The translations under genes were made by a program, and so were the position numbers. Below are positions 32,674 to 52,609 of a DNA stretch of 56,714 bases, piece after piece. The stretch spans positions 1-56,714 of the forward strand of contig SUWK01000009.1 of assembly GCA_015061525.1 (NCBI GenBank). The letters are read 5' to 3'. The notes under the pieces are model-generated. The model did not search any database and had not been told where the DNA came from. It saw only the letters and a list, made by a program, of their open reading frames with translations. Numbering within the stretch: the stretch's first letter is position 1; each line of letters begins with the position of its first letter. Source of the stretch: Lentisphaerota bacterium (GTDB lineage: Bacteria > Verrucomicrobiota > Lentisphaeria > Victivallales > Victivallaceae).

Positions 32674-33164
32674 AGTTATATCACGGCAGCCATATTGAAG
32701 TGAAAAATCCAAAAATCATTACTTCTTCCAGAGTGGGAGACTTCGGGCATGGATTTTATACGACCAGCAGTTTGGAACAAGCCCGCCGCTGGGCTCAAAT
32801 CCGGGCAAAACAGGAAGATCTCTCTGCAGGTATCGTAACCGCATTTGATGTTCCGGATAATCTTTTTGAGCATCCGGAATTGAAGATCAAAACTTTTGAA
32901 AATGCCAATGAAGAGTGGTTGGATTTTGTTCTGGCAAACCGTAAAAATGTCGACTTTGACCACGAATTTGATATTGTCAGAGGACCAGTCGCCGATGACC
33001 GGGTGTACGTCTGTTTGAATATGTTGGAAGATGGTTTGGCTGACCGGGAAACGGTTATCAAAAAATTAAAAGCTTATGTGCTGGCAGATCAGATATTGTT
33101 TCATACCGCCAAGTCGCTGTTGTTTCTGGAATATGCTTCAACGGAGGAAGTGCCATGCAAGTAA
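32670..33164 (+). CDS. DUF3990 protein (putative ADP-ribosyltransferase-fold toxin)
   Basis: 164 residues. The N-terminal LYHGSHIEVKNPKI followed by FGHGFYTTSSLEQARRWA resembles the NAD-binding core of ADP-ribosyltransferases, and EWLDFVLANRK plus DIVRGPVADDRVY are family hallmarks. DUF3990 genes commonly pair with DUF3791. Coupled to its partner by an ATGA overlap. Probable role: an NAD-using toxin or defence effector; substrate unknown. Confidence 0.75.
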   Translation: MKLYHGSHIEVKNPKIITSSRVGDFGHGFYTTSSLEQARRWAQIRAKQEDLSAGIVTAFDVPDNLFEHPELKIKTFENANEEWLDFVLANRKNVDFDHEFDIVRGPVADDRVYVCLNMLEDGLADRETVIKKLKAYVLADQILFHTAKSLLFLEYASTEEVPCK

Positions 33165-33547
33165 CGCAGAAAAATCTTTACAACCTCATCCCACCTAAAG
33201 CGGCAAAAATCACCACCATGCTGCGGTCGAGCCGCAACATGGCAGTTAAACAAGCGTTGTTGACTTTTTACACTTCAAGAGCGTACCGGCTTTTGGAACG
33301 GGAGGAGACCAAACTGTGGTACGCCAGTCCCGCCCAGATTTTTGCAGAACATCTGACTGTTCCCAAACATTCCCGTAAAAGTTATCAAAATGGTCCCGGC
33401 CGCAGTAAACTTGCTCCTTACGCAGAACAGATCAAAGAGTGGCAGGCTAACGGCATGACACTCCGTGAAATCGCTGTTGAGTTGCAGAAATACGGCTGTA
33501 GCACAACAGCACAAAATATTTCTCTTTTTCTGCGTAAGAAGAAGTAG
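33155..33547 (+). CDS. third cassette protein with C-terminal helix-turn-helix
   Basis: 130 residues, overlapping the DUF3990 gene by 10 bases and preceded by a strong GGAGG site. The N-terminal half (TMLRSSRNMAVKQALLTFY, then RLLEREETKLWYASPAQIFAEH) is helical and unrecognised. The C-terminal half, from PGRSKLAPYAEQIKEW through MTLREIAVELQKYGCST, reads as a small HTH of the kind in plasmid and transposon regulators. It could be the DNA-binding repressor of the cassette. Confidence 0.62.
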   Translation: MQVTQKNLYNLIPPKAAKITTMLRSSRNMAVKQALLTFYTSRAYRLLEREETKLWYASPAQIFAEHLTVPKHSRKSYQNGPGRSKLAPYAEQIKEWQANGMTLREIAVELQKYGCSTTAQNISLFLRKKK

Positions 33548-33606
33548 CAGTTCTTTAACTATCTAACCGAAGAAAATAGATACATAAAAAAACTGACATC
33601 ATGTTT

Positions 33607-36600
33607 TTATATTGCAATCGCCGGATAGCGGTTGTAAACGTGTTCGTAGATAAGGTCTGTGTAGCGGTTGATGCTCTGGTCGTCGTAGCTCTGCGGGAGC
33701 GAGACAAAGAGGGAATCGCGGATAAGAGTGCTGACGATAGCCTGCGTGTCGGATTTATCCCGCCAGTGATCAAGTTCGGCTATTTTTTCTTTTATTTGAG
33801 CGAGCAATTCAACCGCGATCTTTTTAATTGCCTTTATATCGTTTTTAGACAAATCATCTTTGAAAAGCAGATCGTAAACGGATAACTCCTCGTCCGTTGA
33901 AAAGCCTTCCCGGATATAACGCTGCTGTTCGCCGTCAAGTTCTCCGCAGAGGCGCATCAGGTCATCAAAGGTTTTCTCGATTTTGGGGCGGTCATGTTCC
34001 TGATTGTATTCGTCGATGATTTTCTGATATTTTTCATGGTATTTGATACGGTCCGGATTATTGGGCAGCATAGAGGCTATCCGCTGTTCGATAAGCTGTT
34101 CCAGATCTTTGATCAGCAGGAATTTCTTTTTGGTTTTGGAAAACTCTTTGCGGAGCAGATCAAAATCAATCTTGCTGATATCAAAGGAACGCACCGTTTC
34201 ATCTCCGGTCGATTCGGTGGAAACATATTCATTAACGATATGGTTGATTTGAACCATCAGATCAACTGTGTCGGCATTTTTCCGCTTTTCGATCAATTCG
34301 TTGTAAATGCCGCTGATTGCGTTGCGTTCTTTTGCCATCTGAAGATCTTTTTCATCTTTATTCAGATACTTCCACAACCGGAAAAGTTCACTGGCGATCG
34401 TTTGAAATTCTTTTTTGGTTTTCAGATCAACGCACAACTCATTGGCGGCAGTTTTGAGCAAAGCGATACGTTCAAATTCTGAAGAAGAAACCAGATCATC
34501 CAAATTAAAATTATGTTTCAGCAGAAAATCTTTTGCTTCAGCAATAAGTTCCCGTACCCGGATAACAAGCATTTCTTTGTCAATCGTGGGGTCTTGTCCC
34601 TCGGAGTTCCCTTTTTGTGAAGTGTAATCTGCCAGAGCCTGCCGTAGAGCTTTGACTATTCCGATGTAGTCTATGACCAAACCGTTGGTTTTGCCTTCTG
34701 CCACGCGGTTGGCACGGGCGATGGTCTGCATGAGGGTATGAGCTTTAAGCGGCTTATCCAGATATAGACAGGCAAGGGATTTTACATCAAAACCGGTGAG
34801 CCACATGGCACAGACGAAAACCACCCGGAACGGATGATTTGAATTTTTGAAATCCTTATCAAGTTCACGGTCGATCATTTTCTGCCGATGCGGGAGGATA
34901 TCCAAGCCCCAGGCTTTGAAGGTTTTTATTTCGTTCTGCTCCTGACTGATGACGACCGCCATTTCGGTTTCCTGCATCCACTGGATTTTGCGGGAAAGTT
35001 CCAAAGAAAGCTGCTGAGAAGTTTCGTGTTTCAATTCGGCTTGCAGTTCGGAAATCTTCTGCTGCCAGTATTTCTGAACGAGGTTATACATCCGGACGCA
35101 GGAAACTTTATTCAAGCAGACATACATTGCCTTGCCGCAAGTCCAGTGATCGGAATAGTGTTCCACGAAATCTCTGGCATAAGCATCAAAACGGGGTTCG
35201 GCAGTGAGCAGATGGATCTCTTTGGCAAACTCTTTTTCCAGTTTTTCCTGTTGATTGGGATCAAGTTCGGCAGCTTCGAGAGCTTCGGCGATGCGTTCGG
35301 TAATTTCCGGATCGTTGATATCGTTGAATTTCTGTCCGCGGTTTTCGTAATAAAGCGGAACGGTGGCACCATCGTCCACCGCCCGCTGGAAGTCATAAAT
35401 TGAAACATAACCGCCAAAAGTGCGTTCGGTGATATTGTCATTGGCAAGCAGAGGAGTTCCGGTAAAGCCGATACGGGAAGCACTCGGAAGCAAGCGGCAC
35501 ATATTGTCGGCAAAAATACCGTACTGGCTGCGGTGGGCTTCGTCGGACATGATGACAATATCGTGATCGGGAATGATGGGCGGCAGCTCCGGCTGATTGA
35601 ATTTCTGGATGAGCGTAAAAATAAAACTGGGGTTGCCCTTGAGTTTTTCCACCAAGTCAGAACCGCTGGAGGCGATGAATTGCGAAGATTTGACTGCACC
35701 GAGCATACCGCAGTTTTCAAAGGTGTCGCTGATCTGTGTGTTGAGTTCATCGCGGTCGGTCAGGATGACAAAAGTCGGAGAACCGGCGGCTTTACGGCGG
35801 ATTTTTTGAGCAAGAAAGAGCATGGAATAACTTTTTCCGCTGCCTTGAGTATGCCAGAAAACACCGAGCTTGCCATCTTTGAGTTTGCGGTTGGCATAGG
35901 CTTCGACGGCTTCGTTGACACCGAGATACTGGTGGTTGCGGGCGAGGATTTTTGCAGTATGTCCGTTGGAATGGTCAAAGAGGATGAAGTTTTCCAGAAG
36001 GTCGAGGAAAGTCTCTTTTTTGCAGATGCCGCGAAGCATGGTTTGCAGTTCCACGCAGCCGGGATCTTGCTCTTTGAGGCGTTTCCATTCGTGGAAAAAT
36101 TCATACTTACTGCCGAGAGTACCGACTTTGGCGTGATGGCCGTTGCTCAAGATGAGAAAAGCGTTGTAGTAAAAGAGTTGCGGGATGGTATCCTGATAGT
36201 CGGTAAAGTTATTGGTAAAGGCATCCTGCACGTCGACATTGACCGCTTTGAATTCCATAAAAAGCAGGGGAATACCGTTGACAAAGCCGACGATATCGGT
36301 ACGGCGGCGATAGTGATAACTGTGGATTTTGAGTTCTTTGATGGCGAGAAAATGGTTGTTGGCAGGATTCTGAAAGTCGATGAGTCTGGCGGTACGGGTG
36401 GAGATTTTGCCATTGGGGAGTTTGACGGAAACGGGGACGCCGTCACGGATGAGAGAATATTTTTCCTCATTGATCTGCATTAAGGAGGCGGAAGCGAGGT
36501 GAGCTTCAAAATTTTTCTGAACTTCGTCAATTTGAGCCGGAGTGATCCAGGGATTGAACTCCTGAACTTTGAGCCGGAAATAGTGGGAAAGCAAAATTTC

Positions 36601-36744
36601 CTGATAACTTTTCCGTCCGAACGTGCCGTCTGCACCAAGTTTTTCGGTATCGTAGGCAAACTTGACCTCCCAGCCCAACTCATTCTGGAGCAGATTTCCC
36701 GCACTTTCCTGCACCAGAATATTTTCAGAATACTCGTAACTCAT
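33607..36744 (-). CDS. hsdR: type I restriction endonuclease subunit R
   Basis: 1045 residues. N-terminal PD-(D/E)xK nuclease region with TDIVGFVNGIPLLFMEFKAV (E164, K166). Motor: Walker A TQGSGKS (301-305), DRDELNTQI, DEAH at 401-404, FTGTPL, and a later helicase half with TGFDVKSLACLYLDKPL and ANRVAEGKTNGLVIDYIG. It translocates DNA and cuts away from unmethylated sites with HsdM and HsdS. The ATG at 36744 has GGAGAG upstream. Its first codons (MSYEYSEN) are copied upstream of the Fic gene, see the 23-bp repeat. Last gene of the operon; appears intact. Confidence 0.95.
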   Translation of the reverse strand: MSYEYSENILVQESAGNLLQNELGWEVKFAYDTEKLGADGTFGRKSYQEILLSHYFRLKVQEFNPWITPAQIDEVQKNFEAHLASASLMQINEEKYSLIRDGVPVSVKLPNGKISTRTARLIDFQNPANNHFLAIKELKIHSYHYRRRTDIVGFVNGIPLLFMEFKAVNVDVQDAFTNNFTDYQDTIPQLFYYNAFLILSNGHHAKVGTLGSKYEFFHEWKRLKEQDPGCVELQTMLRGICKKETFLDLLENFILFDHSNGHTAKILARNHQYLGVNEAVEAYANRKLKDGKLGVFWHTQGSGKSYSMLFLAQKIRRKAAGSPTFVILTDRDELNTQISDTFENCGMLGAVKSSQFIASSGSDLVEKLKGNPSFIFTLIQKFNQPELPPIIPDHDIVIMSDEAHRSQYGIFADNMCRLLPSASRIGFTGTPLLANDNITERTFGGYVSIYDFQRAVDDGATVPLYYENRGQKFNDINDPEITERIAEALEAAELDPNQQEKLEKEFAKEIHLLTAEPRFDAYARDFVEHYSDHWTCGKAMYVCLNKVSCVRMYNLVQKYWQQKISELQAELKHETSQQLSLELSRKIQWMQETEMAVVISQEQNEIKTFKAWGLDILPHRQKMIDRELDKDFKNSNHPFRVVFVCAMWLTGFDVKSLACLYLDKPLKAHTLMQTIARANRVAEGKTNGLVIDYIGIVKALRQALADYTSQKGNSEGQDPTIDKEMLVIRVRELIAEAKDFLLKHNFNLDDLVSSSEFERIALLKTAANELCVDLKTKKEFQTIASELFRLWKYLNKDEKDLQMAKERNAISGIYNELIEKRKNADTVDLMVQINHIVNEYVSTESTGDETVRSFDISKIDFDLLRKEFSKTKKKFLLIKDLEQLIEQRIASMLPNNPDRIKYHEKYQKIIDEYNQEHDRPKIEKTFDDLMRLCGELDGEQQRYIREGFSTDEELSVYDLLFKDDLSKNDIKAIKKIAVELLAQIKEKIAELDHWRDKSDTQAIVSTLIRDSLFVSLPQSYDDQSINRYTDLIYEHVYNRYPAIAI
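36722..36744. repeat. 23-bp direct repeat, copy 1 (hsdR start)
   Basis: TTTTCAGAATACTCGTAA followed by C and TCAT: the reverse complement of the first codons of hsdR. Copy 2 lies at 37663-37685 with a single C/G difference. The two copies bracket the Fic gene. Confidence 0.92.
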
Positions 36745-36762
36745 TAATTTCTCTCCATATTC

Positions 36763-37641
36763 TTAAAACTCGTCCGAATCACTCTCGTAATAGTAAGAGT
36801 AGTCGATACCTTTCATAAACATTTCCCGGTCGTCGATTTTGTCGGTCAGAGCAACTTTCAGCAGAGCTTTCAAATCGGAACTGTCAACGACACTTTTACG
36901 CATTGCATCAAGATATGCGTTTTTATTGACCAAACTCCAGTTGATACATTGTTTCAAAGAACGTTTGAGCATCAAGTCCAGCCAGATACGGGTGGAACGC
37001 CCATTGCCTTCCATAAAGGGGTGAGCGACATTCATTTCCACATACTTGTTGATGATCTCTTCAAAGGAAGATTCCGGCATATTCTCAATATTGGGCAGAA
37101 TGGTGGAAAAATAAAGAGCATTGGCAAAGGTGAAACCGCCCTTGCTGATATTTTTATCCCGGATTTGCCCGGCGAAGTCATACAAGCCGCCGAAAAGATA
37201 AGCGTGAATTTGCTGCAAGCATTTTACCGTTCCCGGTTCCATAGAAGCAAGGATACCGCTTTCAAAGAGAGTGTAAGCCTTGGTTCGACTTTTGCCGTCG
37301 ATGGTATCATCGCTGTAAGTGAACCATTTTATAAATTTAGCGGCATGACGGCTTGGAATATGCTCAATCAAAATGAGAATATCCTGTTGGGTAAGACAAT
37401 CGGTCAGATAGCGTTTGCCGTCGGCAGCGGTCATTTTCAGTTGACTACAATTTGTAGTCAACTCGGGGTTGGTCTTTTTCAGGCGTGATTTGAGAACGCT
37501 CCAGTATTTGCGCGGATTAACGCTTTCGGTCAAAACGCCGACAATATCGGCAACCGAGAACAGCCATTGATTAGCTGAGGCATCCCACGCCGCCCGGACC
37601 TCACGGTCATTAAAAAAACGGATGGAAATTTTATTGCTCAT
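36763..37641 (-). CDS. Bro-N/Fic fusion protein (class III-type Fic AMPylase)
   Basis: 292 residues from the ATG at 37641 (a TTG at 37650 is possible). Residues about 1-107 resemble a Bro-N antirepressor-like DNA-binding domain ([24 protein letters not shown]). The Fic core follows: [22 protein letters not shown], and the active-site loop [12 protein letters not shown] (207-218) with all catalytic residues. The C-terminus has SYYYES (about 282-287), matching the class III self-inhibitory motif (S/T)xxxE. Expected to transfer AMP to a target protein, held in check until needed. It lies between hsdR and an unknown gene, flanked by 23-bp repeats, as a separate cassette. Confidence 0.85.
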
Positions 37642-37646
37642 CAATT

Positions 37647-37685
37647 TCAACCTTGTTTTAATTTTTCAGAATACTCGTAAGTCAT
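37647..37685 (-). other. vestigial hsdR start, 12-codon mini-ORF
   Basis: Reads ATG ACT TAC GAG TAT TCT GAA..., a peptide [12 protein letters not shown] then TGA. It mirrors the true hsdR start (MSYEYSEN). Its ATG overlaps the preceding gene's stop (ATGA) and its own stop sits 5 bases before the Fic ATG, so it can act as a coupling leader. Confidence 0.75.
37663..37685. repeat. 23-bp direct repeat, copy 2 (upstream of Fic)
   Basis: Same 23-bp sequence as 36722-36744 with one mismatch. Marks the upstream edge of the inserted Fic cassette. Confidence 0.92.
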
Positions 37686-38410
37686 AATTCATCATCCCGC
37701 AATTTGCAAATATTTTTTGTCATCATAATTTTACGCAACTTGGTTCCTAAATCAGTATATGCATAGTATGAATTGACTTTACGGGGTATGGGGATTTTTT
37801 TAGAAACCATACGCGTAGGTTCTGTTATGAAGCGATTTTTCGCCTGGTGATCCTCCGTAATTATACCAAGTCCTTCTAACCTCAACAATGGCTCAATTCC
37901 ATCACTTTGCCCCTCGTATACTACAAATAAATTTTCTGTATACATTAAATAAGTTACATCATCTGGAAGTAGTCTGTCTATAATTTCTGCATATGTAGAG
38001 AATGTCTGCCAATCAATATACTCGGACAAATATGCAAGGTATAATTTCGCTAACATTCTTGGTTTGTTGTAATCAAGATAGCGATCCACTAAAATCATAA
38101 TGTACTCAAGTTGTTGTTTTTGAAATTTTTCATTCTGTTGGAATTTCTCCGCATACAAGTTGCGATTATTTTCATCAAGAGAACATTTATTTAACTCATC
38201 TAAAAAACATATTAATTTTTTTAAGTTGTGTCGCTCTTTAATGCTTTTTCCAATGCGATATATGGAAATCGCAGAAGATATAAACGGTATATCTTTTAAA
38301 ATACCATCTTCAAGTAACGCATCAATTCCCAACTCCGCCGCATTAGATATGATACTTTCAAATTCTGGTGACAAACTGTCTTTTAATGACTTAGATAAAT
38401 CATTTGCCAT
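37682..38410 (-). CDS. unknown protein downstream of hsdS
   Basis: 242 residues from the ATG at 38410, which overlaps the hsdS stop (TGATG) and has a GGAGG site. A hydrophobic or amphipathic patch, DIPFISSAISIYRIGKSI (about 38-56), precedes a long helical middle (KRLYAEKF-type, QLEYIMILVDRYLDYNKPRML). The C-terminal part (LLRLEGLGIITEDHQ..., then YAYTDLGTKLRKIM) looks like a winged-helix fragment. AT-rich, unlike hsdM. I do not recognise it. Placement inside the operon suggests a defence-linked or regulatory role, perhaps abortive infection. Confidence 0.7.
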   Translation of the reverse strand: MANDLSKSLKDSLSPEFESIISNAAELGIDALLEDGILKDIPFISSAISIYRIGKSIKERHNLKKLICFLDELNKCSLDENNRNLYAEKFQQNEKFQKQQLEYIMILVDRYLDYNKPRMLAKLYLAYLSEYIDWQTFSTYAEIIDRLLPDDVTYLMYTENLFVVYEGQSDGIEPLLRLEGLGIITEDHQAKNRFITEPTRMVSKKIPIPRKVNSYYAYTDLGTKLRKIMMTKNICKLRDDEL

Positions 38411-39633
38411 CACTTCACCTCCAATTCGCCGGTCATCAGTTTGGGCAATAAATAATCTCTCGCTTCTTGGCATGAATTAACAGCTTTTGACAATACTTTA
38501 ACTTTCTCGAAATACGGGGCAACAATCTGTTCAAATGAATCAATGATTTTTCTTGATGGCAGTAAAGTGGAATACATCTCCAATTTATCTACTTTTACCC
38601 TTTGTCGTCCATCACTTCCCGTCATACTGTTGATTGCATAATTTCTGAATTCTTCAGTTCTCGCCAATAAGTACACTATGTACGGATTTAATTTTTTAGA
38701 TCTCAAAACAATAAATTCTGTTGAACCGACGCCATACACACCTTTATCAATATCTGAAACGAAAGCAGTCTTCCCATTTTCTAGACATGGAGTAATACGG
38801 GCGAGAAGAGTATCTCCGATCTCAAATTTACTGCCAGCATTTTTACTTGTTTCAGAAACCGCTGCCGTTGAAATTACCATGCTGGATGTGCTTAATGCTT
38901 CCATCGGAATAAAAGTTTTAATAGTATCATTCGTTGCGGTAATCTTCGGATTGAATGCAATAAGTTCACATAATTGTACTTTCTCCCAACCTTCGGGTAT
39001 GCCGTTGATGATTTTGATGGTTTCGTGACCTTGGAAGCGGAGGTCGATGAACCATTCTTTATAGAGCCGCTGAGCGGCTTCTTCGAGCAGTTTGATCTGT
39101 TTCCGGTTATTTTCAATCAAATCATCATACGCCGAAAGCACATCCGCAATCTTCCGTTGCACCTCAAGCGGCGGGAGAGAGACAGGCACATTTGACAGTA
39201 TGGATGTATTCAAATTGAGCATTGTTGAGCCGACTGCATGTTTTTCAACCCAGCCAACAGATTGAGACGTTTGCAGCTGATAAAAAATAAACTTGGGATT
39301 TGCTTGGGATTCATCTATTGTAACACGCAAACATCCTGTTCCACACAACCATCCGCTTTCTTCTTTACCGGCATACGCACATCTACCGACATCTCCCCTG
39401 CGGGAATACAGAATATCACCGCTCTGTATTTTATGCTTGGTAAGTCTTTCGACATGGGATGCTTCAATCCGTGCAATAGATTGTTCTGATATTTTGCCTT
39501 CTACCAAATCCTTTGGCATAACAACAGGTGTGCCAATTTCTGAATAATCCGATTGGTGCAACTGTGAACCGAAAGGACCAGTCTGAATATTACTGGCAAT
39601 ATCGCCAAGTTTTACTTGTTGCCACTTACTCAT
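38410..39633 (-). CDS. hsdS: type I restriction specificity subunit S
   Basis: 407 residues with the usual two target-recognition domains separated by conserved helices. TRD1 starts WQQVKLGDIASNIQTGPFG and ends with LPPLEVQRKIADVLSAYDDLIENN. TRD2 starts IPEGWEKVQL and ends with LLPSRKIIDSFEQIV and a C-terminal LLPKLMTGEL. Complete; it sets the methylation and cutting site. Overlaps the cyclase-like gene by 8 bases and the downstream unknown gene by 1. No inverted hsdS copy is present, so no phase-variable inversion is apparent. Confidence 0.93.
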   Translation of the reverse strand: MSKWQQVKLGDIASNIQTGPFGSQLHQSDYSEIGTPVVMPKDLVEGKISEQSIARIEASHVERLTKHKIQSGDILYSRRGDVGRCAYAGKEESGWLCGTGCLRVTIDESQANPKFIFYQLQTSQSVGWVEKHAVGSTMLNLNTSILSNVPVSLPPLEVQRKIADVLSAYDDLIENNRKQIKLLEEAAQRLYKEWFIDLRFQGHETIKIINGIPEGWEKVQLCELIAFNPKITATNDTIKTFIPMEALSTSSMVISTAAVSETSKNAGSKFEIGDTLLARITPCLENGKTAFVSDIDKGVYGVGSTEFIVLRSKKLNPYIVYLLARTEEFRNYAINSMTGSDGRQRVKVDKLEMYSTLLPSRKIIDSFEQIVAPYFEKVKVLSKAVNSCQEARDYLLPKLMTGELEVK

Positions 39634-40417
39634 TTTTTCCCTCCAAAGTCAATTTGTCCAAATTGATTAAAAAAGGATGATTGTTGGCATGACAGTATTC
39701 ATTAAACTGATTTGCCAACCAGTGGTATTTAGGGAAAACAGTTGTCTTGTTTTTCGCAAGTAATTTTTTATATTCGTGTAAAATAAAAGAACCATTTCGA
39801 CGAAGATACTGTTCTACTTTACTTTTTCCTCCATCTAATAGAGCAATTCCCCAAAATGGATTCAGATACAATTCCCCATCGATATCTTCACGTATGACTT
39901 CATCTACTTCAAGAAAATTACATAGGTTTAACATTTCTTTGCTTATATAATCAAAAATAGTTCTTTCAATAATAATTCTTGGATAATTCGCAATTTTTGA
40001 CTCTCCATTGAAAGCATTAAGTAATGCCTCTCCGTAAACCAATGTGTCATCCATATAAAGATTACCTATCGAAATAGCTCCCCGTATAATGTTGTGATTC
40101 AGCAAGGCATTCATGTAAAGTAATAAAGAAAAATGTTCTATATTAGCAAAATACCCCATTATGTTCTTTGTATCTTGGATTTCTGTAGCAATGATAATAT
40201 TGTCACTGAATATTTTGATTTTTATATTACTCTTATAAGATTTTTTCATATCTTTATGTATATAATTCGCAAAAGAATACACATAATTAATTGATTGCAA
40301 AAATTTATTATTTTCTTTCGGATCACGCATTTTTTCACTGGCTCCGAGGAAATCTAAAAATGCAACGATATGCGGAGTCTGTTTCAGCGGCTCTGTCGGC
40401 TGGTACTTTAATTTCAT
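39626..40417 (-). CDS. nucleotidyl-cyclase-like protein inside the RM operon
   Basis: 263 residues. The pattern AFLDFLGAS... (first acidic metal position, about residue 22), FSDNIIIAT (second Asp, about residue 71), NALLNHNIIRGAISIGNLYM, and VYGEALLNAFNGES...NYPRIII follows the class III cyclase/GGDEF fold core. It resembles a widespread hypothetical family with the core DILG - SDS - RGAI..G. The SDN and RG residues are consistent with metal and nucleotide binding, but base selectivity cannot be read. Start has GAGGTG upstream and overlaps a 22-codon sORF (ATGA). AT-rich. It may make a cyclic nucleotide signal in defence; this is inference. Confidence 0.6.
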   Translation of the reverse strand: MKLKYQPTEPLKQTPHIVAFLDFLGASEKMRDPKENNKFLQSINYVYSFANYIHKDMKKSYKSNIKIKIFSDNIIIATEIQDTKNIMGYFANIEHFSLLLYMNALLNHNIIRGAISIGNLYMDDTLVYGEALLNAFNGESKIANYPRIIIERTIFDYISKEMLNLCNFLEVDEVIREDIDGELYLNPFWGIALLDGGKSKVEQYLRRNGSFILHEYKKLLAKNKTTVFPKYHWLANQFNEYCHANNHPFLINLDKLTLEGKNE

Positions 40418-40482
40418 TTTTGCACCTCGCTGACAATATTTTTTATAGGACTTATGAGTCTTATTTTAATTGCATCTCTCAT
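40414..40482 (-). CDS. 22-residue sORF linking the four-helix gene and the cyclase-like gene
   Basis: Encodes a peptide starting MRDAIKIRLISP and ending SEVQK. Its ATG overlaps the stop of the four-helix gene (ATGA), and its TGA overlaps the start of the cyclase-like gene (ATGA). This perfect chaining suggests it is really translated, as a coupling peptide or a remnant of a lost gene. It contains copies of a 9-nt repeat also found in the four-helix gene. Confidence 0.55.
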   Translation of the reverse strand: MRDAIKIRLISPIKNIVSEVQK

Positions 40483-41147
40483 TGTTTCCCGCCTTTCAGC
40501 AGCTTTGCCGCTTCTTCGATCTTTTTCAGTAAAGATTCATTGTTGTATTTTGCGGCATCTCGATAGATTTCCCGCAGGAGCGATAAGAGTTTTTCCTGTT
40601 TCGCATTGCGGCTGTTTACCCGGGCGTTATACATCCTCTCACGCAAGCCGCCTTTTTCAGCGAAACTATCTGCCAATGATTTCAGTTGCCGGTCAAGCAG
40701 ATAATTGGTCTGGTGGATCAGCGAAATCATCACATTGCAAAACAACTCGGCGTTGTCAGATGGCAAATAGCTCTTATAAGTCTCATAAGACTTATTCTTT
40801 GTTCGGGCAAGCTGTCTGATCTGCACAATTCTCTGATCATCTTTATCCCACAATGGCAAGTTATGCACCCGCAGATAATCCCGGTAATCTTCCAGTAATT
40901 CTTCGAGACTCGCTCTTGCAACACCGATAAGTTTGATCTCGGTTTCGCTGCTTATCCCCGAAGCCATACATCCCTCGATGATATTCTGTTTGCCGCTTCT
41001 TGCCGCCTGTATCATCTGGTCGATCGTCCGGTCTCCCTTTTTGAGAAAATTGGTACAAAAATCACTGGTGGCATCGAATATCACCACGCTGTTCTGATAG
41101 GATTCCAACTCCTGATAATTGCCGTGAGGCTGGATGATTTCACTCAT
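40479..41147 (-). CDS. four-helix-bundle suffix-domain protein
   Basis: 222 residues. The first 110 residues are a four-helix-bundle (S23/IVP-like) domain: TIDQMIQAARSGKQNIIEG, then ARASLEELLEDYRDYLR. A Tyr-rich repeat NKSYETYKSY follows (about 118-127). The suffix region NAELFCNVMISLIHQTNYLLDRQ completes the known architecture, often found in hsd operons of Bacteroidetes and relatives. Exact role unknown, possibly a nucleic-acid-binding accessory of the RM complex. ATGA overlap with hsdM. Confidence 0.78.
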   Translation of the reverse strand: MSEIIQPHGNYQELESYQNSVVIFDATSDFCTNFLKKGDRTIDQMIQAARSGKQNIIEGCMASGISSETEIKLIGVARASLEELLEDYRDYLRVHNLPLWDKDDQRIVQIRQLARTKNKSYETYKSYLPSDNAELFCNVMISLIHQTNYLLDRQLKSLADSFAEKGGLRERMYNARVNSRNAKQEKLLSLLREIYRDAAKYNNESLLKKIEEAAKLLKGGKQ

Positions 41148-43153
41148 ATTTCCAGCTCCTTGAAGTTGGCGGAGATTTTTTCCATCAGCGTGTTGGATTG
41201 CTGCTGCAAGGTTAATAATTCAGCGTGAATTTCGTGCATCCTTTCGGCGAAATCCACTCCGTCATCTTCGACGGCGGCAACTCCGACATACGCTCCCGGA
41301 GTCAGCGACCAATTCTTTTCTTCTACTTCATCAATGCTGGCTATCTTGCACAATCCGGGGACATCGGTATATTCGCCGTCAGTTCCGAACTTCTCTGTCA
41401 GCCATTTTGCTTCCTGCAAAATAGTGATATAATCGTTTATAACTTCTGCGACTGCTTCGCCTCGTTGTTCCAAAGCCTTTTTATATGCCGCCAAGCGGAT
41501 GAAACCGATATCTTTGAGCTTCTCTTTCTGTAAGTTCGCCGGAACATTTTCAAAACTTCCCAGCACTCCGGCGGTACACTTTTTGTGAATTTCTGCGGTT
41601 GCTTTCAATGATTCAATTACAGCATCCGGCTTTATCAAGGTTTCCGCAGTCATCTCTTTCAGTTCTTTGCAGAGATGATCCACCGCACAATCAAAGTGTC
41701 CGATGCGGTCACCATCCAGCAGCTGACGGTAAGATTGACAAATCTCTTTTATTTCCGTTACGCTGTTATGGAATGTTTCCAGATATTCGGCAATCAGCCT
41801 GCCGTACTTTTCTTTTTCTCCGCGATAGAGCCAGACAATGGCATTGAGATTTTTCAGCTGCCATTCGCTCCATTCGTTGAGGGTGCGGTCAACTTCAGTA
41901 TAATAGTTGCGGGCATCGATGAAAAGAATTTTATCTTTCAGCGTTTCCGCTTTGCCTTTGTCAAAGAACCAGAGCGAACAGGGCAGACTTTTCGTATAAA
42001 AGAAGTTGTTGCCAACGCTGACCATTGCATCAACGTGCCCGGTTTTGACCAATTTTTCGCGGATGTCTTTATCTTTACCCTGACTGTCGGTGGAACTCGA
42101 TGCCATGACAAACCCCGCCCGTCCGACCTCATTCAAATAGGCGTAGAAGTAGGAGATCCACAGATAGTTGCCGTTGCCAACCTCTTTGGATTTGTTGACG
42201 GCAGGCATTCCGAAAGGCAACCGCCCAGCGGCTTCGGTAGATTCCGCTTTGACTTTATCCACGTTAAAGGGTGGATTTGCCATCACATAATTACATTCGC
42301 CCGCCAGATTGTGAGCGTCGTGATAAAAGGTGTTTGCTTCGTCCCCGGAAAGGATTTTGCCATTCAAACCATGCACCGCCATATTCATCAAACAGAGTTT
42401 TGCGTTGTATTCAACTTTTTCCTGACCGTAAAAGGTCATAGTGTTGTTGGCAATCATCCCAGCGTGGTTGACAAAATCCCCTGTCTGCACGAACATCCCT
42501 CCCGAACCGCACGCCGGATCAAGCAAAATTCCATGGCTCGGTTCAAGGACATTCACGATCATTTTTACCAGAGATTTCGGCGTAAAGAATACCCCGTCAT
42601 CTGAAGCGATATTTTTGGCAAACTTATTGAGAAAGTATTCGTAAATCCGCCCGAAAACATCGCCGCCGACTTCATCCAGAGCATCGTTATTAAAAATACG
42701 CAAGAGTTCCGACAACAATTCATCGGAAAACATCGTGTATTCCTGCGGCAGCACGCCTTGCAGCTGTTCGCTTTGCTGTTCAACCAAACTCATTGCATTG
42801 TTGACCGCTTCGCCCAAACTGATGATCGGCATACCGTTAATGTCACTCAAACCAGCTTCAGCAATATTCGCAGGAAGATTCACTAAATAGGGATATTGAG
42901 CAGCTTCCGGCAGAAACAGCGCACTTTTGGATTTGAAATCGTTGGCATCAACCGGCAACACTCTGCCATTGCGTACCGGACGGTTGGCGAGAACCTCTTT
43001 TTCCACCAACTTGAAGCGGCTGTAAGCGTAACGCAAAAAAAGTAAACCAAGTACCGGCATGCAGTACTGATTGGACGTAAGTTTTGAACCGGCACGAAGC
43101 AAGTCGGCAGATTCCCAGAGGTCGCTCTCAAGTTTGCGGATATTGATCATCAT
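41144..43153 (-). CDS. hsdM: type I restriction-modification methyltransferase subunit
   Basis: 669 residues. N-terminal HsdM_N helices, then AdoMet motif I LDPACGSGGMF (212-219 core) and catalytic NPPFN (293-296), which mark an N6-adenine methyltransferase. The C-terminal part is long and coiled. It modifies host DNA with HsdS and supplies the core for HsdR. Starts with ATGATG, the first ATG overlapping the HTH gene stop by 4 bases. Confidence 0.95.
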   Translation of the reverse strand: MMINIRKLESDLWESADLLRAGSKLTSNQYCMPVLGLLFLRYAYSRFKLVEKEVLANRPVRNGRVLPVDANDFKSKSALFLPEAAQYPYLVNLPANIAEAGLSDINGMPIISLGEAVNNAMSLVEQQSEQLQGVLPQEYTMFSDELLSELLRIFNNDALDEVGGDVFGRIYEYFLNKFAKNIASDDGVFFTPKSLVKMIVNVLEPSHGILLDPACGSGGMFVQTGDFVNHAGMIANNTMTFYGQEKVEYNAKLCLMNMAVHGLNGKILSGDEANTFYHDAHNLAGECNYVMANPPFNVDKVKAESTEAAGRLPFGMPAVNKSKEVGNGNYLWISYFYAYLNEVGRAGFVMASSSTDSQGKDKDIREKLVKTGHVDAMVSVGNNFFYTKSLPCSLWFFDKGKAETLKDKILFIDARNYYTEVDRTLNEWSEWQLKNLNAIVWLYRGEKEKYGRLIAEYLETFHNSVTEIKEICQSYRQLLDGDRIGHFDCAVDHLCKELKEMTAETLIKPDAVIESLKATAEIHKKCTAGVLGSFENVPANLQKEKLKDIGFIRLAAYKKALEQRGEAVAEVINDYITILQEAKWLTEKFGTDGEYTDVPGLCKIASIDEVEEKNWSLTPGAYVGVAAVEDDGVDFAERMHEIHAELLTLQQQSNTLMEKISANFKELEI

Positions 43154-43341
43154 TTTGATTCCTCCACATCAGCGGCCTTGCCGGATTTCACCCAGGCATC
43201 TACTTCATCCTTTTTGAATTTCCACAATTTGCCAATACGATGTCCGGGCATTTCCCGATTTTCAATCCAACGATAAACAGTTTCCCGGCGAATGCCCAGA
43301 TATTCGGTAATTTCTTTCAGCGACAGCCAACGGTCTTCCAT
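43150..43341 (-). CDS. small AlpA/excisionase-type HTH regulator
   Basis: 63 residues of the DNA-binding excisionase/MerR-like helix-turn-helix type: SLKEITEYLGIRRETVYRWIE then a wing (HRIGKLWKFKKDEVDAWV). First gene of the hsd operon, coupled to hsdM by ATGA. A palindrome sits just upstream of its start, so autoregulation of the RM operon is likely. It could also have been the island's excisionase. Both roles are inference. Confidence 0.82.
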   Translation of the reverse strand: MEDRWLSLKEITEYLGIRRETVYRWIENREMPGHRIGKLWKFKKDEVDAWVKSGKAADVEESK

Positions 43342-43353
43342 GATAAAAATGCT

Positions 43354-43381
43354 CCATTGAAGTAATATTTTTGTTCAATGG
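43354..43381. promoter_or_regulatory. operator-like inverted repeat upstream of the hsd operon
   Basis: Perfect 8-bp inverted repeat CCATTGAA / TTCAATGG with a 12-base spacer (half-site centres 20 bp apart, about two helical turns), 13 bases upstream of the HTH start. It overlaps the expected start point of a weak promoter (minus strand TGGAAA, 17 bases, TATCTT; -10 at 43383-43388). It fits a dimer binding site for repression. Confidence 0.6.
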
Positions 43382-43482
43382 TAAGATAGCACAAAAGAGC
43401 ATGGATTTCCAGTGCTTTTGTCAATTTTTCAGTTATTTTGTGTGACTTTAAGGGAACGTTTTTCTATTGTTATAAACAGTCA

Positions 43483-43513
43483 GAGAGTTGCCCGGATGCT
43501 CCGGACAACTCTC
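43483..43513. other. strong hairpin in the intergenic region
   Basis: GAGAGTTG / CAACTCTC plus CCGGA / TCCGG with one C-A mismatch and a three-base loop. No T-run on either side, so it is not a classical terminator. It lies between the hsd promoter and a degraded gene, near the probable right end of the island. Confidence 0.6.
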
Positions 43514-48150: not shown

Positions 48151-50372
48151 TTTTTGGAAAATCCTTTGAACTTCAAAATCTTATCTATGACAAAATCCCG
48201 TTTTTTCTGCAGGGGGATCTTTTCCGATTTCAAGACATTTTCCAATGCTTTTTCTTCTGCAATGCGTTCTTTTTCGGGCATTTTTGCCAAAATTTCCCGC
48301 AGAGTTTCCACAAAACGCCAGTCATTGGCTCCGGCACGGATACCCTCAAAGACCACTGTCGGACAATAGTTGCCGTCTTTATCCTTGTAGCAGTACATCG
48401 TACGCTGGTAGCCATAACAGAAGTCGGCGATTTCAAAATCCGGATCAAAAGTATCCGGAGTATAGAACACCCAGATCATAAACGCTTCCAGCAGCCGGTC
48501 GGCAGGCAAAAATCCGCAGGCGCGGCGGGTCCCGATATAATCATCCCACCATGCGGGCCAGTCCATGCCCCAGAAAGGCTGTCCCCATTTGTGGACGGTC
48601 TGGCGGTACTTGACAGCATCATCGCGGGAAATACGGCTGATTTCAGCGCAGCCGACATCCAGTTCCGGGCGGAGCAGCTCAATGGTCGGCAGTTTGTACG
48701 CCGTGGAGAATGTCTTGACGGATGGATTGACCTCTTTGGCAAGCCCGTACTCCATTTTGGCGAACCAGCCGCGATAACGCCACGCATTGTTTTCGTCGAT
48801 CGTCCGGTCGACCGGGAACGCCGGTTCATCCATCAAATGCAGCAGATAATCCGGATATCCGGCTTTTTCGGTATGTTCCATCACCTTGCCGATGATCTTT
48901 TTATACAGCTCTTTAGCTTCCTGCGGATACTGCCCTTCCGGAACGACATAATGCGGTTCACCGTAAGCGATCAGCCGTTTGTAGCGACCCTGGATCTTGA
49001 GCAGTTCCAGAACCCGGCTGGCAAGCCGGTCATGGAAAGGATTGAAAACCATCTTTTCGGTCATACCGGATTTTCTGTAGCAGTCGATCAAAGCATCGCA
49101 ATGATCCATATTCAGTTTCACATCGCCGTCGGGCAGCAGAGCCACGCCCGCCTGTGCCTGACCGAGATAAACGGAGTTGGCACCGTATTTGCGCATCCAT
49201 TTGAATGACTCAAGCACCGGTTTGTGATAGTAGCAGAACATGTACGGTTTACCTTTGGCAAGGACAAAAGGCAGCACCTCAAAGGTCAGCGGCAATTCCA
49301 CTTTTTTGCCGTCAGCGGCAATGGTCACCGTACCTTCATAGACGCCGGGAACGGCATCTGCGGGCAATTCGGAAATAAGATTGTAAAGTTTCGGACAGCC
49401 CGGTTCGATCGCAGTTGAACGGATGGGAATCTGCACTTTGGGAATGGTGCGGTAATAGTCCCTGCCCCAGATGATATTCATCAACTCCGCCTGCCGGGGA
49501 TCAAATATGGAAGCAGGCAGAACTTTGCCGTCACGGCTTTTGAGATCACTGACTTTGACCGTGACATCTTTCAAAGGGCGCAGTGCGCCGACTGCGATGA
49601 AAAGTTCCTGTCCCTGACCCGGTGTGGAACGGACCGAAAGTTTTTTCAGCACCTCTTTGCGGCGGATTTTTCTGCCCGGAGCCACTTCGCGTACCTCATC
49701 CGGCAGAAACGGTACAAATCCAGCCTGATGTTCAGCAGCAGTTGCTGAGAAAACCGAATCATCCAGCACGTCAAAGCGAAATATCAGTTTACCGTTGCGG
49801 CTGTACGCATGCAGACCGTCGGAAAAGAAACGGGAGTCAAATTTATCTCTCCAATTGGCAGGCACTTTGACGTTTTCAACAGCCGCTTCATCTTCCATAA
49901 GCAAGCGGAAACCGGTAACGATCAATTCGCCGTTGGTATTGTTCATACTGGCGACCAGTTTGAGATTGGAGATCTTTTCCGGCAAAGTTACCTGCTTGGC
50001 GTAACGCACCCACGGCAGAGAATCCGTACCGCAATAGTAGTGGCGGCGCAGCTCAACTTTCACCGGTTTACCGGAAGCATCGTTGTATTCCATGTGAACG
50101 GATGCAGTTCCACTGGGAGCGATCTTGAAGCGGAACTTCGCATCCAGCACCACTTTTTTACCGGCGAATTTTTTAACATCCAAGTTTTTGAATGCCCGGA
50201 CCGTCGTCCGCTGTTTCACATTGATCTTCAACCCCGGCCCGAAAGCGGTTTCGATCTTTTTCACCATGGGTGAATTTGCCGGTTCCGTTATCCATTTGGC
50301 TCCGGCAGGCAGTACCGGCAGCAGTAAAGCTGCCAATACTCCGACACAGACAATATTTTTTGTCATGGTCAT
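48147..50372 (-). CDS. secreted GH123-like glycosidase (DUF4091 type), copy 1
   Basis: 741 residues from the ATG at 50372, which overlaps the upstream stop (ATGA); the next ATG six bases on is possible. Signal peptide (KNIVCVGVLAALLLPVLPAGA). An N-terminal beta region precedes the barrel. The catalytic pair is in LLHLMDEPAFP (about D515, E516), as in GH123 beta-N-acetylgalactosaminidases, and WDDY...GTRRACGF plus FEGIRAGANDWR near the C-terminus match DUF4091. Probably releases N-acetylated amino sugars from glycans outside the cytoplasm. Confidence 0.8.
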   Translation of the reverse strand: MTMTKNIVCVGVLAALLLPVLPAGAKWITEPANSPMVKKIETAFGPGLKINVKQRTTVRAFKNLDVKKFAGKKVVLDAKFRFKIAPSGTASVHMEYNDASGKPVKVELRRHYYCGTDSLPWVRYAKQVTLPEKISNLKLVASMNNTNGELIVTGFRLLMEDEAAVENVKVPANWRDKFDSRFFSDGLHAYSRNGKLIFRFDVLDDSVFSATAAEHQAGFVPFLPDEVREVAPGRKIRRKEVLKKLSVRSTPGQGQELFIAVGALRPLKDVTVKVSDLKSRDGKVLPASIFDPRQAELMNIIWGRDYYRTIPKVQIPIRSTAIEPGCPKLYNLISELPADAVPGVYEGTVTIAADGKKVELPLTFEVLPFVLAKGKPYMFCYYHKPVLESFKWMRKYGANSVYLGQAQAGVALLPDGDVKLNMDHCDALIDCYRKSGMTEKMVFNPFHDRLASRVLELLKIQGRYKRLIAYGEPHYVVPEGQYPQEAKELYKKIIGKVMEHTEKAGYPDYLLHLMDEPAFPVDRTIDENNAWRYRGWFAKMEYGLAKEVNPSVKTFSTAYKLPTIELLRPELDVGCAEISRISRDDAVKYRQTVHKWGQPFWGMDWPAWWDDYIGTRRACGFLPADRLLEAFMIWVFYTPDTFDPDFEIADFCYGYQRTMYCYKDKDGNYCPTVVFEGIRAGANDWRFVETLREILAKMPEKERIAEEKALENVLKSEKIPLQKKRDFVIDKILKFKGFSKK

Positions 50373-52609
50373 TTTCCTTTTCCTTTGAGCAGAAGAATAC
50401 GCTGAATGACCCATTCCCGTTTCTCATCGCTGCTTTTATTTGAGGCAAGCAGATCGTCGAGCAGACGGGTTTCCTGCCAGTAATCCACGGACGGCATGGC
50501 TTTCAGCATTTCCCGCAAAGTTTCAACATAACGCCAGTCATTTGCTCCGGCACGGATACCCTCAAAAACCACCGTCGGCAGCAGATTGCCTTCTTTGTCG
50601 TGATATGAGTAATTAGCCATCTGATAACCGCCGTGGAAATCATCGGCGATATATTCCGGATCATGCAGATGGGAAATATAATACACCCAAATCATGAATG
50701 CGTCAAGTTTGGTTTCCGCCGGGATAAAACCGGCAGCACGCCGGGTTCGGCAATAATCATCCCACCATGCGGGCCAGTCCATGCCCCAGAAAGGCTGTCC
50801 CCAGTTATGGACAGTGCGGCGGTAGTTGATCGCCTCCTCGCGGGTGATACGCTCGATCTCGGCACAGCCGACATCCAGTTCCGGGCGGAGCTGTTCGATG
50901 GTCAGCAGTTTGTACGCCGTGGAGAATGTGCGAACCTGCGGATTGACCTCTTTGCAAAAGCCCAGTTCCATTTTGGTGAACCAGCCGCGGAAACGCCACG
51001 CATTGGTCTCGTCGATAGTCCGGTCGACCGGGAACGCCGGTTCATCCATCATGTGCAGCAGATAATCCGGATAGTTCTTCTCTTTCATATGAGCGAACAT
51101 CTCCCTGACGATCTCTTTGTAAAGTTTGGCGGCTTCAGCAGGGTATTTACCTTCCGGAACAACATAATGCGGTTCACCGTAGGCACGGATCGTCTTGTAA
51201 TTTTTGTGCAGACCGAGCAATTCCAGCACCCGGCTGGCAAGCCGGTCATGGAAGGGGTTGAAAACGATCTTTTTGCTCATACCGGATTTGCGGTAACACT
51301 CAATATGGGCATCGGGAATATCGTAATTCATCACCAGTTTGCCGTCTTTGATATTGGCACTGACTTTGGCATCACCGAGATAGACGGAATTGGCACCGTG
51401 ATCGACCATATCGGCGTAATATTTGAGTTCCGGTTTGTGGTAGTAGCAGAACATATACGGTTTGCCGGTGACCAGTTTGAAAGGCAGAACTTCAAAAGTC
51501 AACGGCAGTTCCATTTTGGAATCATCAGCGGTGATGGTCACAGTACCTCTGTAAATACCCGCTTCAGCATTTTCCGGCAGACGGGTGAGCAAATTGAAAA
51601 GCCGGGGATGCTCCGGAGATGCCGCCACCGGGCGCATGGGATACTGCGGACGGGGTACAGTCCGGTAATAATCTCTGCCCCACATTATCCGCATGATCTC
51701 TGCCTCGCGGAGGTCAAAAATGGAATCCGGCAGAGCTTTGCCGTCAGCACGTTTCAGGGTGCTGACACTGACCTTGACCGCCTTGAAATTACGCAGGGAA
51801 CCGACTGCCAGAAAGAGTTCCTGCCCCTGACCGGGAGTGCTTTTCACTTTAAGTTCGTTCAACACCTCACTGCGGCGGATTTTTCTGCCCGGGGCGACTT
51901 CGCGTACCTCCTCCGGACGGAAAGGCACAAAACCGCGTGCCTTTTCTTCGGCAGTCGGAGTGAAAACGGTATCGTCAAGCAGTTGAAACTTGAAAATCAG
52001 TTTATTGTTGCGGCGGAAAGCCAGTATGCCATGCGGGAAAACGCATTTGGTGAATTTTGATCCGTCACGGATCTCCACTTTCGTTTCACTCAGAGGTTTA
52101 TCCTCAAACACCCGGAGATTGACAAACGTGGCGGCACCGGACGCATCGCTTATACCGGCGACCAGAAAACCGTCTTTGGCTCCGGCGGGGATGCGGTGTT
52201 CTCTGACACATCTGATCCACGGCAGAGAATCGGTTCCGGCATAGCGTGCCTTGCGCAGATAAAAGGTGTGCTTTTTGCCGTCGGCTTTGGTGTATTCCAG
52301 AGCGACGAAAGCGAAACCGTCACTTTTTCCGATGCGCATTCTGCCGTCGATTTTATCATTTTTACCGTCAAGTTTGTCGAAACGCATGGTTCCGTCAATA
52401 ATCACATTTTTTCCGGCAAGACCGGACAAGTCGATTTTTTTACGGATAGTTTGAGTGGTTTTGACCTTGGAGGAGAAGTTCCATCCCTGACCGAAAGCGG
52501 TCTGCACCTCTTTCACGGGCAATGCCGGGTCGATCTCCCAGGATGATGCAGCGATACTTCCGGCAAAAAGCACTGCTGCTGAAAAAATCGCAAACATTTT
52601 TTTGTTCAT
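50369..52609 (-). CDS. secreted GH123-like glycosidase (DUF4091 type), copy 2
   Basis: 746 residues, a clear paralogue of the gene just downstream, with long shared blocks throughout. Signal peptide at the N-terminus (MFAIFSAAVLFAGSIAA). Catalytic MDEP pair at about D522/E523 and the C-terminal FEGIRAGANDWRY motif. Divergence is strongest in the N-terminal 190 residues, suggesting different substrate contacts. Cotranscribed with copy 1 and probably with the pseudopilin upstream. Confidence 0.8.
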   Translation of the reverse strand: MNKKMFAIFSAAVLFAGSIAASSWEIDPALPVKEVQTAFGQGWNFSSKVKTTQTIRKKIDLSGLAGKNVIIDGTMRFDKLDGKNDKIDGRMRIGKSDGFAFVALEYTKADGKKHTFYLRKARYAGTDSLPWIRCVREHRIPAGAKDGFLVAGISDASGAATFVNLRVFEDKPLSETKVEIRDGSKFTKCVFPHGILAFRRNNKLIFKFQLLDDTVFTPTAEEKARGFVPFRPEEVREVAPGRKIRRSEVLNELKVKSTPGQGQELFLAVGSLRNFKAVKVSVSTLKRADGKALPDSIFDLREAEIMRIMWGRDYYRTVPRPQYPMRPVAASPEHPRLFNLLTRLPENAEAGIYRGTVTITADDSKMELPLTFEVLPFKLVTGKPYMFCYYHKPELKYYADMVDHGANSVYLGDAKVSANIKDGKLVMNYDIPDAHIECYRKSGMSKKIVFNPFHDRLASRVLELLGLHKNYKTIRAYGEPHYVVPEGKYPAEAAKLYKEIVREMFAHMKEKNYPDYLLHMMDEPAFPVDRTIDETNAWRFRGWFTKMELGFCKEVNPQVRTFSTAYKLLTIEQLRPELDVGCAEIERITREEAINYRRTVHNWGQPFWGMDWPAWWDDYCRTRRAAGFIPAETKLDAFMIWVYYISHLHDPEYIADDFHGGYQMANYSYHDKEGNLLPTVVFEGIRAGANDWRYVETLREMLKAMPSVDYWQETRLLDDLLASNKSSDEKREWVIQRILLLKGKGK

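Follow-up and report, generated by a model that had tools for sequence, protein, structure and literature searches.

We report that a 12-codon mini-ORF (the stub) in a restriction-modification operon of a Lentisphaerota bacterium is probably the left edge of a recombination scar, formed when cargo came in on DNA of another hsd operon that was joined by homologous recombination at hsdR and illegitimately at the other end. The operon lies in a stretch of 56,714 nucleotides (contig SUWK01000009.1, assembly GCA_015061525.1), hereafter referred to as the window. In related operons the hsdS-hsdR interval serves as a cargo slot of variable size, and fragments of the gene ends that border it recur there, mostly at gene boundaries.

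The window operon and its Fic cargo

The hsdM, hsdS and hsdR genes share one strand and encode the expected domains, and the locus is therefore predicted to be a type I restriction-modification (R-M; hsd) operon. Read along the minus strand, the genes are HTH, hsdM, four-helix protein, unknown gene, hsdS, g3, stub, Fic and hsdR. The features are as follows (window positions; L numbers denote the loci that were compared):

33607..36744, minus strand: hsdR, 1045 aa
36722..36744, minus strand: true hsdR start (MSYEYSEN), the second copy of the repeat
36745..36762, minus strand: Fic-hsdR spacer; ATGGAGAG is also found at the Fic-hsdR junction of L035
36763..37641, minus strand: Bro-N/Fic gene, 292 aa, the cargo beside the putative scar
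37646..37653, minus strand: AGGTTGAA just 5' of Fic; 8 nt also present in the hsdS tail preceding the Fic gene of L142/L123
37647..37685, minus strand: 12-codon mini-ORF (stub), opened by the repeat copy at 37685
37663..37685, minus strand: orphan hsdR head (putative scar), a 23-nt copy of the hsdR start; its ATG overlaps the g3 stop (ATGA)
37682..38473, minus strand: g3, an unnamed 263-aa ORF between hsdS and the putative scar
38410..39633, minus strand: hsdS, ending in ...LLPKLMTGELEVK
39626..40417, minus strand: unknown gene in the hsdM-hsdS slot; a 35% homolog is present in L042
40479..41147, minus strand: four-helix-bundle protein in the hsdM-hsdS slot
41144..43153, minus strand: hsdM, 669 aa
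43150..43341, minus strand: 63-aa HTH protein directly upstream of hsdM

A first-pass annotation of this DNA had described a 23-bp direct repeat with one mismatch flanking the Bro-N/Fic gene, with one copy being the true hsdR start and the other a vestigial start that overlaps the stop of the preceding gene as ATGA, and our data agree with this description. The two copies (36722-36744 and 37663-37685) are identical at 22 of 23 positions and are the only two sites in the assembly (2,830,612 bases in 122 contigs) when up to three mismatches are allowed, while the reversed pattern, used as a control, has zero sites at the same tolerance. Hence, the repeat is not common in this genome, in keeping with the link to hsdR that had been proposed.

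The stub is immediately preceded by g3 and not by hsdS; if g3 instead used a later start at 38410, it would overlap the hsdS stop by 1 nt. The g3 stop shares ATGA with the stub ATG, and only 5 nt separate the stub stop codon (37649-37647) from the Fic ATG (37641), as would be the case had the stub been retained as a leader through which translation of Fic is coupled to that of g3. We consider it highly improbable that such a function explains the stub, since the stubs in L111 and L059 differ in length and leave a wider gap to the next gene, since AAGG 9 nt before the Fic ATG could be the Fic gene's own ribosome-binding site, and since coupling would be a possible later use and not an origin.

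Adenylyltransferases of the NmFic type carry the motif HxFx(D/E)GNGRxxR and a C-terminal inhibitory motif, (S/T)xxxE(G/N). The former is present in the window Fic ORF, and at the position of the latter the window has SYYYES, with S replacing G/N, while the homolog in L156 has SYFYEG. The protein matches the PADLOC profile PDC-S04 (residues 1-287 on profile positions 1-290 of 292, E 3.7e-146) and its Fic part scores 272.9 bits against the NCBIfam NmFic equivalog (cutoff 230). Judged by these matches, that to PDC-S04 being full-length, it resembles PDC-S04/NmFic-like proteins, from which it differs by an N-terminal Bro-N match that is weak and below the Pfam cutoff. Fic is already known as the candidate defence gene PDC-S04, and the novelty does not lie in its identity. 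A scan of the viral contigs with the Fic protein gave no relative, and we looked for mosaic structure inside Fic and saw none.

Insertion of a transposon with target-site duplication was considered and rejected: the insert is the Fic ORF, with Fic and Bro-N domain matches only and none to a recombinase, and the scar length varies from 8 to 31 codons across loci. Inverted repeats of at least 12 nt were not found at the insert edges; the single one in 36700-37760 sits inside the Fic gene (37439-37463) and is perfect, with arms of 12 nt around a loop of 1 nt. No tandem repeats were detected at 33000-43500. Elsewhere in the window, two diverged gene-sized copies (48277-49721 and 50493-51934) are situated approximately 2.2 kb apart, with pieces that are 71-85% identical. 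The HTH protein (43150-43341) scores 79.6 against MAD1 of the MADS defence system, for which the cutoff is 80.

Related operons and their cargo slots

One genome scan supplied the best 80 of 205 relatives of hsdR together with their flanks, and to these we added loci from 198 relatives, from 386 genomes of the phylum, from three viral contigs and from the surroundings of Fic homologs. One of these loci, L042, has an operon without Fic in which hsdR, hsdM and the HTH gene match those of the window at 81%, 84% and 87%, respectively. The DNA homology between L042 and the window extends through hsdM and 622 nt of hsdS and resumes 10 nt before the hsdR start. A second hsdR start was not found in L042, where other genes fill the hsdS-hsdR interval. 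This accords with the earlier suggestion that the second start is tied to the Fic insertion, and as far as the loci allow, no relative lacking Fic was seen to keep both repeat copies.

It had also been suggested that hsdR was once located directly after the upstream gene, and two loci corroborate this for g3. Homologs of g3 (35-39% identical) were detected at only two other loci among 91 + 23 sequences, and in L055 the true hsdR begins 15 nt after the homolog, while in L102 an orphan hsdR head follows it at a distance of 23 nt. Apart from the window gene itself, the g3 search in 198 related genomes gave only two matches, both distant (24-31%); since these are few and distant they do not point to a direct ancestor, and neither a donor nor a direct ancestor of the window arrangement was found among the sequences searched.

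For the Fic gene, L035 has a homolog (79%) directly before hsdR, with an ATGA overlap and with a spacer like that of the window. The sequence ATGGAGAG is present in the Fic-hsdR spacer of both, in an alignment that by eye starts at the Fic ATG, and the hsdR start of L035 differs from the window scar. The closest Fic among the 198 relatives (L123/L142, 87%) is positioned directly after the hsdS gene of another type I system, with an hsdM at approximately 33% and a contig that stops approximately 120 nt beyond the match. No certain hsdS tail follows the window scar, where the match to the hsdS tail of this other system is limited to 8 nt; the presence of AGGTTGAA before the window Fic is a hint of a possible orphan hsdS tail relic.

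Two other loci are described here for their structure. In L202 (1400-1560) a Fic homolog is located behind a degenerate hsdS tail, and no hsd gene was recognised by eye in the 1.5 kb that was translated upstream. In L036 (960-1260; G015:C38), which belongs to the window's genus, hsdM codons 1-43 continue in frame into hsdR at approximately codon 427, and the sides of the fusion show 91-94% DNA identity to the window; either the middle of the operon has been deleted or the assembly is wrong there.

The slot survey included the 82 loci in which hsdM, hsdS and hsdR could all be placed (22 were omitted, including L097). The hsdS-hsdR gap is <100 nt in 20 of these operons, 100-300 nt in one and at least 300 nt in 61, while for the hsdM-hsdS gap 68 of the same operons fall below 100 nt and 11 reach 300 nt or more. 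On these counts the hsdS-hsdR interval constitutes the main, and variable, cargo slot. Cargo beside the other head scars (see below) includes defence candidates: PDC-M59A/B is situated beside the scar in L059, with a homologous pair in L097, and the cargo includes an HEC-04-like ATPase in L111 and a PDC-S20 KAP NTPase in L102. Among the ten scar-side proteins that were run, six gave no PADLOC match and seven no Pfam match.

Orphan gene ends in the slots

To score orphan heads, each 150-nt hsdR head was compared with up to 6 kb of upstream DNA and the best ungapped score was recorded. Of 113 sequences, nine were excluded because they lacked a usable hsdR start or were duplicates (L033, L036, L039, L040, L041, L108, L185, L188 and L189). 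This left 104, of which five more were dropped because their upstream DNA was too short (L010, L052, L084, L099 and L109), and 99 loci were scored. Orphan hsdR heads with a score of at least 18 were identified in 5 of the 99 loci (the window, which is the index case, L059, L097, L102 and L111) vs 0 of 1,183 internal hsdR segments of the same loci; without the index case the number is 4 of 98. At a cut-off of 16 there were five loci vs one control, and head matches scoring 11-15 were taken as chance because controls reach 15-16. In a second set, with 20 loci from whole genomes and 3 from plasmids and mostly with other hsdR families, 21 slots could be searched and one head scar was found, with one control reaching 16. 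This scar is in L230 (11136-11248), which has a different hsdR family and a 15-codon hsdR duplicate 112 nt upstream with no gene between. Head scars are rare, and the counts do not represent independent events since some loci are close relatives of each other.

In four of the five loci the orphan head starts at codon 1, no more than 23 nt past the preceding gene, which it joins through an ATGA overlap in the window and L111 and directly after hsdS in L059. These four heads are cut off after 8 to 31 codons, while the orphan in L097 keeps only approximately codons 15 to 25.

The first-pass annotation explained the second start as a duplication of the hsdR start upon entry of the Fic gene. Local duplication of this kind might result from a staggered break at the hsdR start that was filled by captured Fic DNA, or from a tandem duplication that was later split. 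Since the two hsdR starts in the window are nearly identical (22/23), with differences that are not synonymous, such an origin is conceivable for the window, but we find it unlikely given the data from the relatives. Specifically, in L059 the orphan and the true head differ by seven synonymous and one nonsynonymous substitution across 31 codons (P 5e-5 to 4e-4 if random), and in L230 by five synonymous and zero nonsynonymous across 15 codons (P 1e-4 to 8e-4). With differences that are almost all synonymous, two functional alleles that had diverged as working genes have met in each of these loci, and local duplication fails to account for them. This codon test is passed by L059 and L230 alone. 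The L111 orphan differs from its true head by four synonymous and six nonsynonymous substitutions, and the L102 orphan has coding changes and an indel; these patterns are as expected for older or decayed pieces but are uninformative. The L111 orphan is closer to the hsdR of L066 (83%) than to its own hsdR (73%), in favour of an origin from another hsd operon. The range of scar lengths, from 8 to 31 codons, and the resemblance between the Fic-hsdR spacers of the window and L035 also argue against local duplication, as do the orphan hsdS tails that follow the heads in L059 and L111.

Among hsdS-hsdR slots of at least 100 nt (n=62), a score of at least 16 was reached by an hsdS tail in eight and by an hsdR head in four, while hsdM tails, hsdS heads (0 each) and controls (0/493) gave none. 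The tail match in L146 was set aside since it lies in a second hsdS-like gene that is split over two ORFs, which reduces the tails from eight to seven. In the hsdM-hsdS slots (n=14) the corresponding numbers are one hsdM tail (L087) and 0 for each of the other three ends, with a control of 0/112. Taken by slot, these counts indicate that the slots hold fragments of their own bordering gene ends. The hsdM tail in L087 (7540-7580) is an orphan within the hsdM-hsdS slot, a scar of the same kind at the other slot.

Orphan hsdS tails with scores of 23 to 34 are present in L046, L086, L089, L111 and L117, and weaker ones in L043 (21) and L061 (17). That of L059 was found by an hsdS-tail peptide pattern, which has 78 forward matches and 0 on the opposite strand in 715,608 bases upstream of hsdR, and 0 on either strand of the 941,318 bases from hsdR on. 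The next cargo ORF overlaps the orphan tail or begins no more than 13 nt from it, except in L043, where the tail has no stop and no clear next gene. In total, 10 of the 62 slots are scarred (the window, L043, L046, L059, L061, L086, L089, L102, L111 and L117), with L097 lying outside this set. Ten of the scarred loci named here come from the best 80 of 205 relatives; nine of them carry the title MAG and the other (L086) is an isolate, and misassembly is therefore possible in single cases. In the second set no clear orphan hsdS tail was found in the loci where hsdS was recognised (it was unrecognised in six), and the tail matches in L213 and L216 were set aside as they look like second or split hsdS genes.

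Genes behind an orphan hsdS tail tend to have a homolog that is located directly after a true hsdS (9/12 vs 34/103 for other inner cargo genes; Fisher P 0.009, with homologs that are not independent). Counting by hand a gene in L050 that begins 3 nt after its hsdS would change the former to 10/13.

Both L059 and L111 show the succession hsdR head, hsdS tail, cargo and hsdR, as expected if DNA of another operon had joined inside the resident hsdR head. With an orphan hsdS tail following the orphan head, the second start came into these loci together with other hsd DNA, and this, along with the synonymous differences in L059 and L230, makes duplication of the hsdR start an improbable mechanism. 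In the window alone, DNA of another hsd operon and local duplication cannot be told apart. Taken together, the relatives support the insertion proposed in the first-pass annotation and extend it to other loci, probably with a different mechanism.

Proposed origin of the scar and its relation to known systems

The arrival of cargo on DNA of another hsd operon, which we favour, would have started from an hsd operon with g3 running straight into hsdR. Incoming DNA with Fic followed by hsdR would have joined at one end by homology in or at hsdR, and at the other without homology approximately 8 codons into the resident hsdR. The product would be g3, a truncated old hsdR start, Fic and a complete hsdR, and the mirror event, in which g3 arrives from the hsdS side, would give an identical product. 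In other lineages, repeated events would stack cargo between hsdS and hsdR and leave orphan hsdR heads and hsdS tails, and the scars may persist since the end of the hsdS tail (GGAGAAATCGAGGTG) can act as the ribosome-binding site of the next gene. The process would be homology-facilitated illegitimate recombination, also for the window's own scar, in which the non-homologous left edge is seen and the homologous crossover in hsdR is what we infer.

The head-tail-cargo-hsdR order of L059 and L111 would also be obtained if a piece consisting of hsdS tail, cargo and hsdR head were closed into a circle by ligation and then inserted through a single crossover within the hsdR head. A precedent is available in E. 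coli, for which PMC3240628 reports linear DNA that was circularised by ligation and integrated by a single crossover. We nevertheless judge this route to be very unlikely, since it needs a crossover inside the scar, which in the window is only 23 nt, and since it does not directly explain the tails for which no head was detected (L046, L086, L089 and L117).

Defence-like genes between hsdS and hsdR are known, and part of PMC12255303 refers to the site as a potential recombination hotspot. As presented in sections of PMC12255303, PMC5183652, PMC11411939 and PMC2610378, other type I R-M operons carry cargo at the same hsdS-hsdR position, e.g. rlo/mlo of Campylobacter, TgvAB, DarTG2 and embedded phage-defence candidates. 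These sections deal with the cargo, and differ from the present data in that orphan heads of hsdR and orphan tails of hsdS between the cargo genes are not mentioned in any of them. According to PMC2610378, a transposon carries an rloC gene next to which a C-terminal relic of hsdR is found, and the genome has its complete hsd locus elsewhere. PMC6918075 deals with a different situation, in which operons that lack hsdM contain truncated hsdR genes. In the literature searched, which for selected papers consisted of parts of the text, no account of an orphan hsdR head or an orphan hsdS tail within a cargo slot was found. For T6SS immunity arrays and Rhs orphan cassettes, sequential insertion that leaves displaced gene ends has been put forward in part of PMC5361080, with homology-facilitated illegitimate recombination as the proposed process. 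Going by that part, the hsd slots are similar in stacking and in leftover gene ends; the difference is that the T6SS event displaces the effector and keeps the immunity genes, whereas the hsd slots keep hsdS and hsdR whole and end fragments remain.

Defence genes embedded in R-M operons have been used to discover immune systems, termed 'guilt-by-embedding' in a passage of PMC12255303. In the parts of the literature covered here, the route by which they become embedded has been deduced from position, while the scars are physical traces of joining events. Orphan heads and tails can be searched for, they show where modules that were acquired separately adjoin, and with them the idea of a recombination hotspot becomes testable. 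We tentatively suggest that type I R-M operons might gain defence cargo without an integrase, such that the ends of hsdS and hsdR act as docking sites, orphan ends are left behind and the hsdS tail provides a ribosome-binding site. If this is true, the scars would record which cargo entered separately and would show how defence genes become embedded.
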